Assembly: GCA_025930755.1 (NCBI GenBank)
Contig: JAICOJ010000001.1
Location: 1-64,000, forward strand
Reading direction: 5' to 3'
Length of the DNA stretch: 64,000 bases
Origin: Gemmatimonadaceae bacterium
GTDB lineage: Bacteria > Gemmatimonadota > Gemmatimonadetes > Gemmatimonadales > Gemmatimonadaceae
Shown in pieces: positions 12,753-42,558 of the stretch (its first letter is position 1; the number at the start of each line of letters is the position of its first letter). The position numbers were made by a program, and so were the translations under genes. Under the pieces are notes generated by a model that made no database searches, had not been told where the DNA came from, and was given only the letters and a program-made list of their open reading frames with translations.

Positions 12753-12839
12753 GTCCACATGTCCTCCCGATGGTGCGTCAGATGAGGACGACACCTTCAA
12801 CATCGGGGCCACGGACTGCCGGAATGGCCCAATGAAGAA

Positions 12840-12935
12840 ACACGGGCGCTAGAATAGCGCTGGGAAAAGCGCTGGAGAAGCGCTAACAAATCCCAGCGCG
12901 TTTCCAGCGCTCTCAGCGCTTGTTCAGCGCCGCCG
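12840..12935. repeat. AGCGCT-rich repeat hairpin (family H)
   Basis: The palindromic hexamer AGCGCT or its core GCGC recurs about seven times at 8-12 nt spacing. Half of the copies are followed by GGGA or GGAG and the other half are preceded by TCCC or TTTCC, so the region can fold on itself in two registers. It lies just 3' of the phosphofructokinase gene and may terminate it. Architecture resembles the other hairpin elements in this window. Confidence 0.6.
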
Positions 12936-14135: not shown

Positions 14136-14173
14136 AGGCGATAAGGGCGCTTACGGCGCTAGGGGCGCTGAAG
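14136..14173. repeat. Four tandem 9-bp GGCGCTnnn units
   Basis: Upstream of the phosphofructokinase start the sequence reads GGCGATAAG, GGCGCTTAC, GGCGCTAGG, GGCGCTGAA, i.e. four tandem 9-mers. It abuts the family A hairpin. It lies in the phosphofructokinase leader and may affect its expression; no function is demonstrated. Confidence 0.6.
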
Positions 14174-14331
14174 GAGGGGTCAGGAGTCAGGAGTCAGGGG
14201 TCAGGGGTGGAAAGGGGCCGCCGCGCTTCGCGCGGCCGGCCCTCATCAGATGAGCGCGGCAGCTTCGCTGCCGCGCCTTTCCTTCCCTGACTCCTGACTC
14301 CTGACCCCTGACTCCTGACTCCTGACTCCTC
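14174..14331. repeat. Hairpin element, family A (TCAGGAG heptamers)
   Basis: The left arm (14178-14210) has four tandem TCAGGAG/TCAGGGG units and the right arm (14284-14330) has six inverted units (CTCCTGA). The spacer carries further perfect hairpins, including GCGCGGCAGC-TTC-GCTGCCGCGC at 14254-14276 and CCGCGC-TTCG-type pairing at 14221. It begins directly after the stop of the L,D-transpeptidase gene. Confidence 0.85.
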
Positions 14332-16080
14332 CTAATCCGCCAACTTCCTCAGCTCCTCCAACAGGGCAACCTCTCGCGGCGACGGGATCGCCGACCGCTC
14401 GACGAGCTTCACGAGCTCGCTGTCCCGCTCGTACAGGTCGTTTGCGAACCAGAGCGTTCCGTCGCGAACGTACGCTGTGAAGTAGACGATGTAGACGGGG
14501 ATCTTCTCCTTGAGCACGACCTGGCGGTTCGGCCCGCGTACCGCGCGCTGGATGCGCTCCTCCGTCCAGCCGGGCATGCCCGACAGAGCGTACTGCGCCA
14601 GCTCGTGCGGCTTCTGAACGCGAATGCATCCGTGGCTGAATGCGCGCACATCGCGGTCGAACAACGAGTGGTCCGGCGTGTCGTGAAGATAGATGTTGAG
14701 ATCGTTCGGGAAAATGAACTTGACGGTGCCCAGCGCGTTCTTCTCCCCGGGACGCTGACGGATGCGCGGACCGCCGCGATCTTCGACGATCTCGTAGTCG
14801 TTTCGCTCCAGGTAGCCCGGGTCGGCGTTGATCTTCGGCCAAAGCTCTTCCTCCGCGATCTTCTTCGGCACGTTCCAGTACGGCGCGAACTCCAGATACG
14901 TCATCGAGTCGGCGAACGCGGGCGTCGCCTGGTCCGCATAGTCCTGACCGACGATGACCCGCATGGACAGGACAGGCCGCCCATCCTCGTACGCGTCGAG
15001 CCGGAAGGCGGGAACGTTGACGTAGATGTACCGGTCGCCTAACGAACGCGGCATCCACCGATAGCGCTCGAGATTCGCCATGATCTGTCCCGCGCGGTAC
15101 TCCGCGGTCTGATTGAGCGACGCGAGCGTACCGGGCCCGAGGATGCTGTCGACGACGATGCCGTGCCTGCGCTGGAAGGTCGCAACGGCGCCAGCGAGCT
15201 CACCTTCGTAGATCGCCCGCCCGGTGGAATCGGTGGTGATGTCGCCGCGGTCGATGAACTCCTCGACGGCGAGACGCTCGCGGAGCGCCCTCAAGCGCTC
15301 GACTTGCGCGGTGTCACCGGGGCGAAGCGACGGGCCACCGGGGACCTTGGTCCAGCCGCCTGCGGCCGCAATCTCACGGTACCGCTTGAGCTGCTCGCGG
15401 AGCGCGGTGTACTGCTCGTCCTGCGGGCGCATGAGTTCGATCGCCCGCGCGAGCGGGCTTCCGCGCAGCGTACGCGCGAGCAAACTGTCGACGTCGGCCG
15501 TCGACTGCCGAATTCGCCAGTCGGGGGACACCTTCCCCGGGTCGATCTGGCCGGTGAGCAGATCTTCGCCGAGCGCGACGTAGATCGACGTCAGCACCAC
15601 ATCCGCCTCGGCCAACTGCTCCACGCGCGGACGACGGTTCTTGTCGATGGGCGCGAGGGCCGCACGAAGCTCCTCCAGCGGGTATGCGGTGCCGACGAGC
15701 CCGTGCTCGTGCACGGTCGACAGGGCATCGACCAGCTGGTCCGCACGCTCGCTGTCGGCGTCTTCTTCCAGCCAAAGCGGCACGTTCTGGTAGTACTCGT
15801 ACAGCTTGACGACGCGCGCCCAGTCGCCCTCGTCGAGCCCCTTGGGCCGCTTCCCGCTCGCGACACGGGCCTCGATCGCCTGCTGAATCGCGGCAACCGG
15901 GATGTTCCGGACCTTGGTGAGGCCGTGTGGGCTCCACGTCTCCGCGACGTCGCCCAGGTGGCTCTCGGGGGTCGCCGCGTCCTGGTTCCGGCACCCGGCG
16001 GCGAGCGCGACCGCCAGTATGGCTATGCCGAGGAGCCCCGCGCGACGACGCGCCAGGGGCCCGTGCAGCGTATCTTGCAT
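14332..16080 (-). CDS. L,D-transpeptidase (YcbB/LdtD-like), lipoprotein
   Basis: The 582-aa protein starts at ATG 16080 so that an export signal ends in a lipobox (LAAGC). It has a scaffold region, a peptidoglycan-binding domain (~315-350, GAVATFQRRHGIVVDSILG) and a YkuD domain with HDTPDHSLF and SHGCIRVQKP; Cys485 is the nucleophile. It forms 3-3 or protein cross-links in peptidoglycan. The 31 codons upstream in the same frame lack a signal and were dropped. It is divergent from the HhH lipoprotein. The stop abuts a family A hairpin. Confidence 0.92.
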   Translation of the reverse strand: MQDTLHGPLARRRAGLLGIAILAVALAAGCRNQDAATPESHLGDVAETWSPHGLTKVRNIPVAAIQQAIEARVASGKRPKGLDEGDWARVVKLYEYYQNVPLWLEEDADSERADQLVDALSTVHEHGLVGTAYPLEELRAALAPIDKNRRPRVEQLAEADVVLTSIYVALGEDLLTGQIDPGKVSPDWRIRQSTADVDSLLARTLRGSPLARAIELMRPQDEQYTALREQLKRYREIAAAGGWTKVPGGPSLRPGDTAQVERLRALRERLAVEEFIDRGDITTDSTGRAIYEGELAGAVATFQRRHGIVVDSILGPGTLASLNQTAEYRAGQIMANLERYRWMPRSLGDRYIYVNVPAFRLDAYEDGRPVLSMRVIVGQDYADQATPAFADSMTYLEFAPYWNVPKKIAEEELWPKINADPGYLERNDYEIVEDRGGPRIRQRPGEKNALGTVKFIFPNDLNIYLHDTPDHSLFDRDVRAFSHGCIRVQKPHELAQYALSGMPGWTEERIQRAVRGPNRQVVLKEKIPVYIVYFTAYVRDGTLWFANDLYERDSELVKLVERSAIPSPREVALLEELRKLAD

Positions 16081-16737: not shown

Positions 16738-16754
16738 TCGCGATAGTGAAGGAG

Positions 16755-16842
16755 GAACGAGGAATGAGGAACGAGGAAGCCACGGGTGGGAGCTTGCACG
16801 CAGGAGCATCCGACCAGCTTCCTCGTTCCTCATTCCTCGTTC
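16755..16842. repeat. Hairpin element, family B copy 1 (GAGGAAC heptamers), inside a gene start
   Basis: Perfect 26-bp inverted repeat: left arm 16755-16780, loop of 36 nt, right arm 16817-16842. Arms are tandem GAGGAAC/GAGGAAT units. The left arm contains the ATG at 16764, and both arms are translated as the N-terminus of the DUF4230 protein (MRNEE... and ...LPRSSFLVR). Confidence 0.92.
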
Positions 16843-17459: not shown

Positions 17460-17918
17460 ATGAAAGCGACCACGCTCTGGCTCGGACTCGTCCTGGTGGT
17501 GGTTGCGTGCGCGAAGTCATCGGCACCTGGCGATGACACCGCCTCGCTGACGGGCTCGGTGAGCGCGACGAGTGCCCTCGTAGGGCCGCGATGGCGACTG
17601 GTGGAGCTCGAAGGTCAACCGTCGCTCGCGGGCGGCGGTGCTCGCGAGCCGCACCTGATCTTCTCTCGCGACAGCGTCCACCGCGTCGCCGGCGCAACCG
17701 GCTGCAACTCGATGGGCGGGCGCTACGAGGCTGACGGCGACCGCATCCAGTTCTCCGATCTCTTCAGCACGAAGATGGCGTGCGTAGAAGAGGATCGGAT
17801 GCGCCAGGAAACTCGCTTCGTTCGTGTGCTCGAGCGAGCGGATCGGTACTCGATCAGCGGCGATACGCTGGCGCTGAGCGAGGGTGAGACGGTGGTGGCG
17901 AAGTTTGTGAGGAGCTGA
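17460..17918 (+). CDS. META-domain (HslJ-like) lipoprotein
   Basis: The 152-aa product has a lipoprotein signal (LVVVACAK) and a META domain: WRLVELEGQP, then the signature GATGCNSMGGRYEADGD and MACVEEDRM. HslJ/META proteins are periplasmic proteins tied to heat or antibiotic stress, with unknown mechanism. The ribosome binding site AGGAGGAGG derives from the preceding repeat. The stop codon lies within the left arm of the family B hairpin that follows. Confidence 0.88.
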   Translation: MKATTLWLGLVLVVVACAKSSAPGDDTASLTGSVSATSALVGPRWRLVELEGQPSLAGGGAREPHLIFSRDSVHRVAGATGCNSMGGRYEADGDRIQFSDLFSTKMACVEEDRMRQETRFVRVLERADRYSISGDTLALSEGETVVAKFVRS

Positions 17919-18018
17919 CAGGAACGAGGAACGAGGAACGAGGAAGTGGCAGGGATGGCCCTGCGCACGAAGCACCGTCGGCCACTTCCTCGTTCCTCGT
18001 TCCTCGTTCCTGTCAGCT
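17913..18018. repeat. Hairpin element, family B copy 2 (perfect 38-bp stem)
   Basis: Left arm 17913-17950 and right arm 17981-18018 are perfect reverse complements (38 bp). Arms are AGCTGACA plus three GAACGAG units plus GAAGTGGC. The 30-nt loop shares GGGA-GG-CCTGCGC with copy 3. It lies between convergent genes, so it could terminate both, but there is no T-tract. Confidence 0.95.
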
Positions 18019-18023
18019 TCTCA

Positions 18024-23856: not shown

Positions 23857-23976
23857 AACGGCAAAGATGACGGAATTCAGAATACAGAATTCAGAATCCA
23901 GAAACGACCACGGGGAGCCACACGCCGGCTCCCCGTAGGTTTTAGCTGAATTCTGAATTCTGTCATCTTTGCCGTT
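23857..23976. repeat. Hairpin element, family C copy 1 (ATTCAGA heptamers)
   Basis: The outer 15 bp AACGGCAAAGATGAC (23857-23871) pairs perfectly with 23962-23976. Inside are tandem GAATTCAGAAT units on both sides and a central stem CGGGGAGCC/GGCTCCCCG. It lies between convergent genes and is AT-rich compared with its surroundings. Confidence 0.92.
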
Positions 23977-27230: not shown

Positions 27231-27326
27231 GCATCACCACCGAGGCACTGAGGCACTGAGGACGGCAACCACCGACGCGCCTTGGTGGTTGCCGTCCTCA
27301 GTGCCTCAGTGCCTCGGTGGTGATGC
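27231..27326. repeat. Hairpin element, family E (perfect 43-bp stem)
   Basis: Arms 27231-27273 and 27284-27326 are exact reverse complements (43 bp) with a 10-nt loop. The arms contain CACCACC, tandem GAGGCACT units and GACGGCAACC. AACG/CGTT flank the ends. It fills most of the gap between the cytochrome and the PPK2 gene. Confidence 0.96.
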
Positions 27327-28373: not shown

Positions 28374-30221
28374 ATGCAGCCAACCGACGTCACGAATCCG
28401 CGGTACTACCACAAGGTGGTGGACTGCCAGTGGGGCTGTCCGGCACACACCAATGTGCCGGAGTACATCCGCCTCATCGCACAGGGCCGCTACACCGAGT
28501 CGTACCTCCTCAACCGGGCGTCCAACGTCTTCCCGGGTATCCTCGGCCGCACCTGTGACCGCCCGTGCGAGCCCGCCTGCCGGCGCACCCGCGTCGATGG
28601 AAAGCCGGTCGCCATCTGTCGGTTGAAGCGTGTGGCGGCGGATCTGCGCGATGACGTCAGCGACTTCCTGCCGAAAGTTCCTGAACGCAAGAACGGCAAG
28701 CGCATAGCGCTCGTCGGCGCGGGCCCGGCGTCGCTCACCGTGGCGAACGACCTCATGCCCCTCGGCTACGAGTGTGTGGTCTTCGAGAAGCTCGACCGGC
28801 CCGGCGGCCTCATGCGCACGAACATCCCGGCCTTCCGGCTCCCGGCCAGTGTGCTCGATGAAGAAGTCGCCATGATCATCGACATGGGCGTCGATCTTCG
28901 CCTCGCGACGCCGGTCACGAGCATGCGTGCGCTGCTCGCCGAGGATTACGACGCGGTCTTCGTCGGCAGCGGCGCGCCGAAGGGGAAGGAGCTGGACGTT
29001 CCGGGACGTTGGGACGCGAAGCGGATCCACATCGGCATCGAGTGGCTCGAGTCCGTCCACTTCGAGCATGTGACATCGATCGGCGAGCGCGTGCTGATCA
29101 TCGGCGTCGGCAACACGGCCATGGACTGCTGCCGCAGCTCGCGGCGGTTAGGCGGCCGCGACATCAAGGTGATGGCGCGCCGGTCGCGCAAATACTTCAA
29201 GGCATCCCCGTGGGAGCTCGACGACGCGCTCGAGGAGGGCGTCGAGATCGTCGAGAACCACGCGCCCAGGCGGTTCGTGGTGGAGAATGGCCGCCTGGTG
29301 GGTATGGAGTTCGAGCGGCTCGCGTGGAGCGAGAAGGATGGCAAGCAGCGGAGCGAGGTGATCGACACGGTTACCATCCCCTGCGACGACGTCATCCTGG
29401 CCATCGGTCAGGAGAACGCGTTTCCGTGGATCGAGCGCGACATCGGGATCGCGTTCGATGACGCCGGGATGCCGGTCGTCGATCGCGTGACCATGCAGTG
29501 TAGCCGCCCTGGCGTCTTCTTTGGCGGCGATGCGGCCTGGGGCCCGGAGAACATCATCTGGGCGGTGGAGCACGGGCATCAGGCCGCGATCTCGATCCAC
29601 AACTACTGCCAGGGGCTCCCGATCACGGACCGCCCATCCTACGGGATGAACCTCGTCAGCGCCAAGGTCGGCATGCATGCCTGGCGGTACAGCAACGACT
29701 ACAGTCCCGCGCCGCGCGCGGCGATGACGCACGTCGAGCTGACGCAGCGCTTTCAGAAGCTCAATGTCGAAGTCGAGCTCGGATTCACCGCCGAACAGAC
29801 CGCGCACGAGGTGGAGCGCTGTCTGAACTGCGACATCCAGACGCATTTCACGGCGCCCTTGTGCATCGAGTGTGATGCGTGCGTCGACGTGTGCCCGGTG
29901 AACTGCCTGACGATCACCACCGATGGGCCGGAGGAGGATCTGCGCACGCGACTGTCCGCACCAGCGCTCAACCGCACGCAGGAGATCTACGTGTCGGCCG
30001 CGCTACCACAGACGCAGCGGGTGATGGTGAAGGATGAAGACGTCTGCCTGCACTGCGGCCTGTGCGCCGAGCGCTGCCCGACGGCGGCGTGGGACATGAG
30101 GGAGTTTACAGTGTTGATTCCGTACGCCGGGAAGCCTGCGAGCTACGAACTGCGAACTGCGAACCCAATTCCCTCGGGTTTGAGCTCGCAGCTCGCAGTT
30201 CGCAGTTCGCAGCCGTTATGA
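28374..30221 (+). CDS. FAD-dependent NAD(P)H:ferredoxin-type oxidoreductase with two 4Fe-4S clusters
   Basis: The 615-aa protein resembles the glutamate-synthase small subunit/NfnB group. It has an N-terminal Cys-rich Fer4_20-type domain (CQWGCPAHTNVPEY, GRTCDRPCEPACRR), an FAD site (ALVGAGPASLTVA), an NAD(P) site (IIGVGNTAMDCC) and FGGDAAWGP. Two C-terminal ferredoxin clusters follow: CIECDACVDVCP and CLHCGLCAERCP. Coupled to korA and korB, it probably passes electrons between the 2-oxoacid oxidoreductase and NAD(P)H. The last ~26 residues are encoded by a family D hairpin. Confidence 0.88.
   Translation: MQPTDVTNPRYYHKVVDCQWGCPAHTNVPEYIRLIAQGRYTESYLLNRASNVFPGILGRTCDRPCEPACRRTRVDGKPVAICRLKRVAADLRDDVSDFLPKVPERKNGKRIALVGAGPASLTVANDLMPLGYECVVFEKLDRPGGLMRTNIPAFRLPASVLDEEVAMIIDMGVDLRLATPVTSMRALLAEDYDAVFVGSGAPKGKELDVPGRWDAKRIHIGIEWLESVHFEHVTSIGERVLIIGVGNTAMDCCRSSRRLGGRDIKVMARRSRKYFKASPWELDDALEEGVEIVENHAPRRFVVENGRLVGMEFERLAWSEKDGKQRSEVIDTVTIPCDDVILAIGQENAFPWIERDIGIAFDDAGMPVVDRVTMQCSRPGVFFGGDAAWGPENIIWAVEHGHQAAISIHNYCQGLPITDRPSYGMNLVSAKVGMHAWRYSNDYSPAPRAAMTHVELTQRFQKLNVEVELGFTAEQTAHEVERCLNCDIQTHFTAPLCIECDACVDVCPVNCLTITTDGPEEDLRTRLSAPALNRTQEIYVSAALPQTQRVMVKDEDVCLHCGLCAERCPTAAWDMREFTVLIPYAGKPASYELRTANPIPSGLSSQLAVRSSQPL
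30138..30216. repeat. Hairpin element, family D copy 1 (GCGAACT heptamers), translated
   Basis: Tandem ACTGCGA units (left, 30148-30164) face inverted TCGCAGT units (right, 30186-30212). The whole element is in frame at the 3' end of the preceding gene (YELRTAN...SSQLAVRSSQP) and the stop codon overlaps the start of korA immediately after it. Confidence 0.88.
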
Positions 30222-32086
30222 AGAACGACTTCGCCTTCAAGATCGGGACGGTGAACGGCACCGGATCGGCCAGCGCGAACGGGCTGATCATGCAGGCGAT
30301 CTTCCGAATGGGTATTCCCGTCTCGGGGAAGAACGTCTTTCCCTCCAACATTCAGGGGCTGCCCACCTGGTACGAGATTCGGGTCAACGGTGACGGCTAC
30401 ACGGCGCGCGCGCCCCGCTTCGACCTCGTGGTCGCGCTCAATCCCACCACCTATCAACGGGACGTCGCGGAGGTTCGTCACGGAGGCTTTCTTCTCTACG
30501 ATTCGTCGTGGCCGCTCGACCCGGCACTCGCGCGCGACGACGTCTCGCTGTTGGGCATTCCCTTCGGGCGGATGTGCGGCGAGGCGTTCGAAGGGGATCG
30601 CGAACGGCAGCTCATGCGCAACATCGCGTATGCCGGGGCGCTGGTCGCGCTCCTGAACATCGACATGAGCGTCGTCGAGGGCATGATCCGCGAGCAGTTC
30701 GGCCGCAAGCCGGCGCTGATCGATTCCAACTTCAAGGCGCTTCGACTCGGCTACGACTTCGCCACCGCGAGCTTCGCCTGTCCGCTGCCGTTCCACCTCG
30801 AGCGCATGGATGCAACCGCCGACTACATCATCATCGACGGCAACACCGCCGCCGCGCTGGGATGTCTGTACGCGGGCGCCACCGTCGGCGCATGGTACCC
30901 CATCACGCCGGCGACCTCGCTCATGGAGGCGTTCAAGAGCCTGTGCGAGCGCTATCGGGTCGACCGCGAGACGGGACAGAAGCGGTTTTGCATCCTCCAG
31001 GCCGAGGACGAGCTGGCCGCGGCGGGAATGGTCGTGGGAGCAGGATGGACAGGTGCCCGCGCGTTCACGCCCACCGCGGGGCCCGGCATCTCGCTGATGC
31101 AGGAGTTCATCGGGCTCGCGTACTACACGGAAATCCCGGCGGTCTTCTTCGATGTCCAGCGCGTCGGCCCGTCGACGGGAATGCCGACGCGCACGCAGCA
31201 GGGAGATCTGATGTCGCTCGCCTACGCCTCGCATGGCGACACGAAGCACATCGTGCTGTTTCCCGCGAATCCGGAGGAGTGCTTCTCCTTCGCGGTGCGT
31301 GCGTTCGACCTCGCCGAGCGGTTTCAAACGCCGGTCTTCGTCGCGTCGGACCTCGACATCGGTATGAACGACTGGATGTGCCGGCGTCTCACGTGGGATG
31401 ACGGCTACCGACCCGATCGTGGGAAGGTATTGGGGGCCGAGGATCTCGAGCGGATCGGTCGGTTCTCGCGGTACCTCGGCGACAATGGCGACGCGGTCGC
31501 CGCGCGCACGTTGCCGGGCATCGACCCGCGTGGCGCGTATTTTACCCGCGGATCGGGGCACGACGTCCATGCCGGCTACACCGAGGATGCAGCGGCGTAT
31601 TCCCAGGTGCTCGCTCGGCTCGCGCGAAAGCTCGAGCAGGCCGCGGCGGCGGTGCCGCCGCCGGTGATCGACCAGCGCGACGGCGCCGCGAGCGCTGGCA
31701 TTATCACGATCGGCAGCTGTGATGCGGCGGTGCGTGAGGCCGTCGATCGGCTGCGGTCGGAGGGTGTGGCCCTCGACTACATGCGCATTCGCGGGTTCCC
31801 ATTCGGTGCGGAGGTCGCCCGGTTCCTGAACGACCACGAGCGGCTGTTCGTCGTCGAGCAGAATCGCGATGCGCAGCTCCGGGCGTTGTTGGCCATCGAG
31901 ACCGGCACGCCGCGCGATGCGATGACACCGATTCTCGACTACGGTGGGGTCCCGCTCAGTGCGGAGCCGATCGCCGAGGCTGTGAAAAGCGGCCACGAGC
32001 TGCGACCCGCGAACTACGAGCTGACATCCAAGGGGGTGAGTTCGCAGTTCACAGCTGGCCGTTCGCAGCCAGGTGTACCGCGATGA
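30218..32086 (+). CDS. korA: 2-oxoacid:ferredoxin oxidoreductase, fused gamma-alpha subunit
   Basis: The 622-aa protein fuses a POR gamma domain (~1-190, KIGTVNGTGSASANGLIMQAIFRMG) to the alpha pyrimidine-binding region (~200-620, YITPATSLMEAF after GAWYP, and AEDELAAAGMVVGAGWTGARAFT, then STGMPTRTQQGDL). With KorB it oxidatively decarboxylates 2-oxoglutarate or a related 2-oxoacid with CoA and ferredoxin. The ATG overlaps the previous stop. The final ~28 residues are encoded by family D copy 2. Confidence 0.92.
   Translation: MKNDFAFKIGTVNGTGSASANGLIMQAIFRMGIPVSGKNVFPSNIQGLPTWYEIRVNGDGYTARAPRFDLVVALNPTTYQRDVAEVRHGGFLLYDSSWPLDPALARDDVSLLGIPFGRMCGEAFEGDRERQLMRNIAYAGALVALLNIDMSVVEGMIREQFGRKPALIDSNFKALRLGYDFATASFACPLPFHLERMDATADYIIIDGNTAAALGCLYAGATVGAWYPITPATSLMEAFKSLCERYRVDRETGQKRFCILQAEDELAAAGMVVGAGWTGARAFTPTAGPGISLMQEFIGLAYYTEIPAVFFDVQRVGPSTGMPTRTQQGDLMSLAYASHGDTKHIVLFPANPEECFSFAVRAFDLAERFQTPVFVASDLDIGMNDWMCRRLTWDDGYRPDRGKVLGAEDLERIGRFSRYLGDNGDAVAARTLPGIDPRGAYFTRGSGHDVHAGYTEDAAAYSQVLARLARKLEQAAAAVPPPVIDQRDGAASAGIITIGSCDAAVREAVDRLRSEGVALDYMRIRGFPFGAEVARFLNDHERLFVVEQNRDAQLRALLAIETGTPRDAMTPILDYGGVPLSAEPIAEAVKSGHELRPANYELTSKGVSSQFTAGRSQPGVPR
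31991..32070. repeat. Hairpin element, family D copy 2, translated
   Basis: A more diverged copy of the 30138 element: GAGCTGCGACCCGCGAACTA on the left faces GAGTTCGCAGTTCACAGCTG on the right. It is read in the same frame as copy 1 (ELRPAN...SSQFTAGRSQPG) at the 3' end of korA, 13 nt before the korB start. Confidence 0.8.
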
Positions 32087-33138
32087 CATCGATTCCGAAG
32101 CCTTCCGTCCGTCACCCGGGCCTCCCTCGCAACGCGCTGGGCCTGACGACGCGCGATTACGAAGGCGGCATGTCGACGCTGTGCGCGGGGTGCGGGCACG
32201 ACTCGATCACGGCGGCGATCATCCAGGCCGTGTGGGAGCTCGACCTCCCGCCGCATCGCGCGGCCAAGCTGAGTGGCATCGGCTGCTCGTCCAAGACGAC
32301 CGCCTACTTCATGCGGCAGTCGCACGGGTTCAATGCCGTGCACGGGCGCATGCCGGCGGTCGCGAGCGGCGTGCACGCGGCGAATCGCGAGCTCGTCTGC
32401 ATCGGCGTCTCCGGCGACGGCGATTCGCTGTCGATCGGGCTCGGCCAGCTCTGCCACGCGATCCGGCGCAACATCAACCTGCTGTACGTGCTCGAGAACA
32501 ACGGCGTGTACGGTCTCACGAAAGGCCAGTTCTCCGCATCCGCCGATGTGGGATCGAAATCGAAGCGGGGAGAGCCTAACGTGCAGCCCCCCATCGATCC
32601 GGTGCTGCTCGCCATCACGCTCGGCGCGACCTTCGTCGCGCGCGGGTTCTCCGGCGACAAGAAGCAGCTCGTCCCCATCCTCAAGGCGGGGCTCGCGCAT
32701 CGGGGGTTCGCGCTCGTGGATGTCATCTCGCCCTGCGTGACGTTCAATGATCACGAGGCCTCGACGAAGAGCTATCGCTTCACGCGCGGGCATCGCCATG
32801 AGCTGGCCCCGGTGGATTTCATTCCGCTGACGCACGAGATCGCGGCAGCCACCGTGCCGGGCGACCCGGTCAGTGTGACGATGCACGATGGAAGCGTCGT
32901 CCGCTTCCGATCGGTCGGGGAGGACTACGATCCGACCGACCGTGACGCCGCGTACGCCCATATCCGCCGGCTGCAGGCTCAGGGCGAAGTGGTAACCGGA
33001 CTGCTCTACATCGATGAGCGGGCCCCCGACATGCACGGCGTCAACGGAACGATCGAAGAGCCGTTGACGCGGGTGCCATACGCATCGCTCTGTCCGGGGA
33101 ACGCGGCGCTCCAGAAGTTGCAGGAGGAGTACCGATAG
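32083..33138 (+). CDS. korB: 2-oxoacid:ferredoxin oxidoreductase, beta subunit
   Basis: The 351-aa protein carries the TPP-binding motif GVSGDGDSLSIGLGQL...NNGVYGLTKGQ and cysteines for the proximal 4Fe-4S cluster (LCAGCGHD, GIGCSSK, and the later SPCVTFND). It is the catalytic partner of KorA and overlaps it by ATGA. SxKSKRGEPNVQPP is typical of KorB proteins. The complex fits reductive TCA or ferredoxin-linked oxidation of 2-oxoglutarate. Confidence 0.94.
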   Translation: MTSIPKPSVRHPGLPRNALGLTTRDYEGGMSTLCAGCGHDSITAAIIQAVWELDLPPHRAAKLSGIGCSSKTTAYFMRQSHGFNAVHGRMPAVASGVHAANRELVCIGVSGDGDSLSIGLGQLCHAIRRNINLLYVLENNGVYGLTKGQFSASADVGSKSKRGEPNVQPPIDPVLLAITLGATFVARGFSGDKKQLVPILKAGLAHRGFALVDVISPCVTFNDHEASTKSYRFTRGHRHELAPVDFIPLTHEIAAATVPGDPVSVTMHDGSVVRFRSVGEDYDPTDRDAAYAHIRRLQAQGEVVTGLLYIDERAPDMHGVNGTIEEPLTRVPYASLCPGNAALQKLQEEYR

Positions 33139-36839: not shown

Positions 36840-36946
36840 AACGGCACGAACCACAGAGGCACCGAGGGCACGGAGGAACCCCGAACTGCAGGACCTGCGG
36901 TTCGGGGTTCTTCCGTGCCCTCGGTGCCTCTGTGGTCAGTGCCGTT
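36840..36946. repeat. Hairpin element, family F copy 1 (GAGGCAC heptamers)
   Basis: A nearly perfect 107-bp palindrome. AACGGCAC is followed by ACCACAGAGGCACCGAGG, GCACGGA and GAACCCCGAAC; the second half mirrors this with about five mismatches in some 53 bp, and there is almost no loop. It lies between the S9 gene and the sugar dehydrogenase-like gene. Confidence 0.95.
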
Positions 36947-42456: not shown

Positions 42457-42558
42457 GAACTGCGTAAACCACAGAGGCACCGAGGCACAGAGAACGGCCA
42501 ACTGCACGTCCTCTGCAGTTGGCCGTTCTCTGTGCCTCGGTGCCTCTGTGGTTATGCA
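42457..42558. repeat. Hairpin element, family F copy 2 (perfect 40-bp stem)
   Basis: Arms 42467-42506 and 42514-42553 are exact reverse complements with a 7-nt loop. Units are ACCACAGAGGCACCGAGG, CACAGAG and AACGGCCAACTGCA. It lies between the metalloprotease stop and the GxxExxY stop, 7 nt from the latter. Confidence 0.96.

Follow-up and report, generated by a model that had tools for sequence, protein, structure and literature searches.

Palindromes with heptamer arms at gene 3′ ends of a Gemmatimonadaceae genome, two of them read as C-terminal tails in an overlapping operon

Two adjacent operon genes of a Gemmatimonadaceae bacterium end in protein tails that are read from palindromic repeats, called here D1 and D2. 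We consider it likely that both are GAACTGC-family copies of dispersed palindromes with heptamer arms lying at gene 3′ ends, and that the tails are tolerated passengers. The two repeats were recognized in a 64 kb stretch of the source genome, hereafter the window.

The genes concerned overlap without a gap. The upstream one (28374..30221, + strand) encodes a putative NAD(P)-binding/FAD oxidoreductase, judged by its sequence to be of the glutamate-synthase-small-subunit type; no profile reached its cut-off, the best NCBIfam match being NF009410. It is followed by korA (30218..32086, +), coding for 2-oxoacid:acceptor oxidoreductase alpha (TIGR03710, above cut-off), and by korB (32083..33138, +), coding for the beta counterpart (TIGR02177, below cut-off). 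Stop and start overlap as ATGA on the + strand at 30218..30221 and at 32083..32086, as read from the sequence. The FAD protein ends in ...YELRTANPIPSGLSSQLAVRSSQPL, its last approximately 26 codons being D1, while KorA runs from the ATG at 30218 to the stop at 32084-32086 and ends in ...HELRPANYELTSKGVSSQFTAGRSQPGVPR.

D1 (30140..30212, +), translated as SYELRTANPIPSGLSSQLAVRSSQP, is a near-perfect single hairpin with (GAACTGC)n arms (DNA fold z -6.26). It sits one to two codons upstream of the FAD/korA ATGA: behind the tail comes only L and the stop, whose TGA overlaps the korA ATG. D2 (31997..32068, +), translated as ELRPANYELTSKGVSSQFTAGRSQP, is of a decayed GAACTGC type and has lost its hairpin (fold z -1.01, with 31 of 200 shuffles equally good); behind it stands the native GVPR and the stop, whose TGA overlaps the korB ATG. 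With up to three mismatches, GAACTGCGAACTGCGAA is found seven times in the window versus 0.23 expected, always within D1 and D2, and none of 100 shuffles reaches this count. The preliminary description had presented both tails as translated D elements that preserve coupling to the next start codon, and this holds, D2 being a decayed copy. It had also placed the tails after the natural end of each protein, which has to be corrected: both elements precede the native stop, and since KorA keeps its ancestral GVP(A/R) ending behind D2, this element lies inside the coding end. A search of positions 12000-44000 of the window gave no match to curated Rfam families, and assignment of the hairpins to one of them was abandoned.

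Gene ends in relatives were compared in two sets. KorA was searched in 60 genomes, 36 of which had a match, and the closest 19, including the source genome, were retained; the second set comprised the source locus and 80 named loci, most of which bear the label Gemmatimonadetes or Gemmatimonadaceae. Orthologues usually end in HLAGVPA for KorA and in PYAGxxxR for the FAD protein, both with ATGA, and the KorA stop overlaps korB by 4 nt in 74 of the 78 loci with a readable korB start (3 of 81 rows gave no value). Past the conserved match, the usual KorA tail has 7-13 residues; it has 32 in both the source genome and G001, a genome of the same genus. ELRTAN-type tails were found in no other locus of either set, and the comparison of homologues proposed earlier supports their absence from relatives. 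G001 (also locus L087, Gemmatimonadaceae OF_bin.40) carries instead GGATTGC elements at both korA junctions, in the same place and frame, with tails of another sequence (GGLRTAD versus HELRPAN in the source KorA). Because G001 also has elements there, D1 and D2 may descend from a single old pair whose sequence has changed, rather than from two recent insertions.

Further repeats occupy these gene ends in other genomes. The KorA end of G017 carries a GGGACTC element, and the FAD end of G021 a GGGGCTA element with the FAD stop inside the arm. At the FAD-korA junction of loci L097 (around 2385-2500) and L115, a GAAGATG-type hairpin contains the ATGA stop/start in its loop, so that one arm is the FAD C-terminal tail and the other a KorA N-terminal extension. 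The KorA tail of L041 (genome G015) is made of a non-heptamer repeat (CHPERSEG...SLSLLGMT) that precedes the ATGA as D2 does.

Several hairpin families, all built of 7-nt units, are scattered across the source genome. A D 15-mer has 344 copies there (reversed control, 0), 142 in G003 and one or two in each of G004, G011 and G029; the other 55 of 60 genomes, same-genus G001 among them, have none. In the same 60 genomes, a GAACGAG 18-mer is present 124 times in the source and 3 times in G001 and is missing from the other 58, and a GGATTGC 18-mer is most frequent in G003 (121), G053 (11), G001 (9) and G036 (5), with 3 copies each in G006 and G007, 2 in G044, 1 in the source and none in the rest. 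GGATTGC runs lie within the first ~150 bases of three G003 contigs (C64, C115 and C122), and such arrays may break assemblies.

The make-up of these elements was examined in a 371 kb sample of the source genome, consisting of stretches chosen around D matches and of the window. Perfect runs are dominated by period 7 (92), followed by periods 14 and 21, which are multiples of 7 (20 and 19), and by period 9 (17); period 8 gave 2, and periods 4-6 and 10-13 gave 0-1. Forty-nine of the 72 period-7 clusters have an inverted partner and are counted as 49 hairpin elements, many with a core sequence inside the heptamer arms. In G001, full-length family B copies of ~115 nt with up to 90% identity lie on many contigs, so that whole elements are dispersed. 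Among 20 D elements, arms are more alike within a locus than between loci (0.901 vs 0.865), a small but real difference that 0 of 2000 permutations reached. The window also holds perfect or near-perfect hairpins of a further family, with units of an 8-nt type (GAGGCACT; ACCACAGAGGCACCGAGG), at 27231-27326, 36840-36946 and 42467-42553. Hairpins with 9-nt, GCGCTGGAA-like units are common to the source (window ~12800-12915) and G001, where they also stand at the counterparts of junctions 14123 and 23849.

The position of the elements was related to gene ends called by our own codon-usage script, not by a standard program. The 49 elements lie at a median of 0.5 nt from gene 3′ ends (n=60) versus 37.5 nt from 5′ ends (n=36). 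Among tandem gaps, those offering a free space of at least 20 nt were scored: the element is closer to the upstream stop than to the following start in all 20 cases of the 371 kb sample and in all 3 from 171 kb of contigs picked without regard to D (together 23/23, p 2.4e-7), even when 100-276 nt separate it from the start. Choice by D may bias the family make-up of the larger sample, but hardly the stop/start asymmetry; the 171 kb sample has only 9 elements, 6 of them classified, and one of its nine 3′-end distances is 153 nt. G003 (6 elements) and G001 (4, one gene call being doubtful) show the bias in the same direction, with too few elements to replicate it. The preference for 3′ ends, envisaged earlier for D, is thus supported for the whole hairpin class and not for D alone. 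Insertion exactly at a stop codon, the other suggestion, agrees with the many elements that start 2 nt inside a gene or within 15 nt of its stop, but not with D1 and D2, which precede it. In two palindromes between convergent genes (L066 8895-9041 and window 17908-18023), pairing continues past the heptamers into flanks peculiar to the locus, and both stop codons lie within these flanks.

We propose that elements, presumably mobile, would be retained, or inserted, almost exclusively at the 3′ ends of genes, directly against the stop codon. Because operon genes overlapping by ATGA leave no gap, a gene-end element would land one to four codons upstream of the stop. It would remain readable, GAACTGC-type heptamers being free of stop codons in all frames of both strands; this, with a net length that would leave the ATGA overlap intact, could explain why D1 and D2 stay open. 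The outcome would be a C-terminal tail of ~25 residues, translated if the genes are expressed as read and most likely a tolerated, neutral passenger. Some observations count against this proposal: the stop-codon flushness is tighter than simple tolerance requires, and D2 has decayed to the point where its hairpin no longer scores. Moreover, in three aligned loci we found no clean border and no clean empty site with the target duplication that marks a MITE, leaving insertion as a unit a possibility.

Hairpin sites were also compared with those of G001. From 57 gene junctions in three source regions, 50 could be mapped: at fold z <= -4.5, 12 are occupied in both genomes, 9 in the source only, 3 in G001 only and 26 in neither (Fisher p 5e-4). 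Of 24 junctions inspected by eye, 13 bear heptamer or nonamer elements in the source and G001 alike. None of the 13 has the same repeat unit in the two genomes, although the units of three look related (families assigned by eye). In the window, such junctions include hairpins, without assigned strand, of family B (AGTCAGG; 14172..14333, nonamer hairpin in G001), of family A (GAACGAG; 16752..16842, and 17908..18023 between two convergent stop codons, GGATTGC in G001 at both) and of family C (CAGAATT; 23857..23976 between convergent genes, nonamer repeat in G001). Permissive sites, a selected 3′-end function or replacement could each produce this pattern. A possible but rather doubtful alternative to the passenger reading is that the hairpins are functional 3′-end structures, such as bidirectional terminators, exonuclease barriers or REP-like ribosome-pausing signals, selection keeping the site while any family supplies the hairpin. 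Apart from the shared sites with different units, this would account for the RNA folds of the elements (-31 to -271 kcal/mol) and for their orientation, 18 of 53 classified elements being convergent and 4 divergent, compared with 62 and 64 in a background of 461 junctions; ribosome stalling has also been reported where E. coli REPs stand no more than 15 nt from the stop, in the sections consulted of PMC12306157. Yet the association fades at stricter cut-offs (p 0.023 at -5 and 0.085 at -6), sites that are merely permissive, with a gap available and no promoter, would be shared too, and termination would do harm within the operon that holds D1 and D2, the latter even without an intact hairpin. 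More speculatively still, gene 3′ ends of Gemmatimonadaceae might act as lasting 'docks', passed on as sites although sister species exchange the repeat family that occupies them, either by placement directed to stop codons or by one element replacing another, so that overlapping operons would keep rewriting protein C-termini.

An enzyme might instead direct elements to stop codons, or to sites opened by terminating ribosomes or transcripts, which we regard as unlikely. Such targeting would fit the stop-side position of every tandem element, long gaps to the start included, and the finding that, for 10 of the 60 gene 3′ ends, the element starts exactly 2 nt inside the gene, so that the far arm pairs with the final two bases of the stop codon; however, element borders were obtained by extending palindrome edges with a script, a procedure that may include chance pairs, and the putative enzyme was not found in a search of one transposase family. 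This family, the Y1 transposases (PF01797), has one match in the source and none in G001, G003, G017 and G021, and no heptamer runs lie in 6.8 kb around the sole source copy; with neither correlation with the repeats nor adjacency in this PF01797 search, a RAYT was rejected as mobiliser. Quite improbable, finally, is that selection maintains the tails as useful extensions of the proteins and acts on their frame. In each of the two species of the genus, the tails at both junctions are open and in frame, and those of KorA are of equal length in source and G001, but their sequences differ and open frames are cheap. Indeed, every unit of a heptamer array moves the reading on by one base, and the array thus gives an identical seven-residue cycle in every frame: (GAACTGC)n reads as ELRTANC, rotated, in all three, and the other arm as AVRSSQF, rotated. 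Consequently, an equal frame for D1 and D2 is expected in about 1 of 3 cases or better; the 'same frame' of the preliminary description is real in both tails, but being nearly automatic it was rejected as a sign of selection. Its suggestion of selection for frame is likewise weakened by counts made by eye on element-bearing junctions only: the ATGA is kept at 4/4 KorA-KorB junctions (source, G001, G017, G015) but at only 4/8 FAD-KorA junctions (source, G001, L097, L115), being lost in L135, L145, L164 and G021. Neither strand of the units GAACTGC, GAACGAG, GGATTGC and GGGACTC gives a stop codon, while CAGGAGT, CAGAATT and GGGGCTA do contain stops. We also discarded the idea that the D unit is special in this respect, as 50% of all heptamers are stop-free on both strands, or 74% when weighted by the base composition of 67% G+C.

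Heptamer repeats are over-abundant in bacteria. We found no published report of heptamer hairpins in Gemmatimonadota in the literature searched. In the present case several families coexist in one genome, the elements are closely linked to stop codons, and G001 has other units at many of the gene ends concerned; these features make it testable whether the site is selected or targeted, and who moves the elements. The tails illustrate how proteins can be lengthened by a 7-nt repeat that lacks stops while the operon stays intact.

As the best reading, the hairpins resemble dispersed palindromic repeats akin to the reported Xanthomonas heptamers and to REPs, and would be translated like Rickettsia palindromic elements; the comparison is with the consulted portions of the papers cited. 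The closest precedent is the Xanthomonas heptamers (PMC4692102), described there together with those of Nostoc as dispersed GGGAATC or GGGGA(C/T)T units without an assigned function. Xcc has 186 heptamer patterns, 70 as convergent inverted pairs; on average they are 28 nt away from the nearest ORF on the 5′ side and 160 nt from the next downstream ORF, and most lie between the same genes in two species, with varying length and sequence. Here too, tandem 7-nt units are dispersed in many copies, nearer the upstream ORF end and often as inverted pairs. In contrast to the one unit kind per genome and the G-quadruplex reading of Xanthomonas and Nostoc, our elements have several units, GAACTGC without G-tracts among them, and are mostly long hairpins; their median of 0.5 nt from stops, the translation of some as protein tails and the different units of sister species at the same site also set them apart. 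REPs, mobilised by RAYTs, often provide with their GTAG termini a TAG stop to flanking ORFs (PMC3733652, PMC12306157); they share with our palindromes the location near gene 3′ ends, whereas heptamer arms do not figure in these accounts and a Y1 transposase link is missing here. In Beggiatoaceae, TAACTGA repeats form intergenic heptamer arrays noted for stops in all three frames (PMC4679880), a comparable all-frame property, but as direct repeats before start codons, not inverted at gene ends. Rickettsia palindromic elements (~150 bp) encode a conserved peptide within ORFs (PMC10969869); D1 and the decayed D2 are likewise palindromes in frame inside an ORF, with the difference that they form C-terminal tails made of heptamers.
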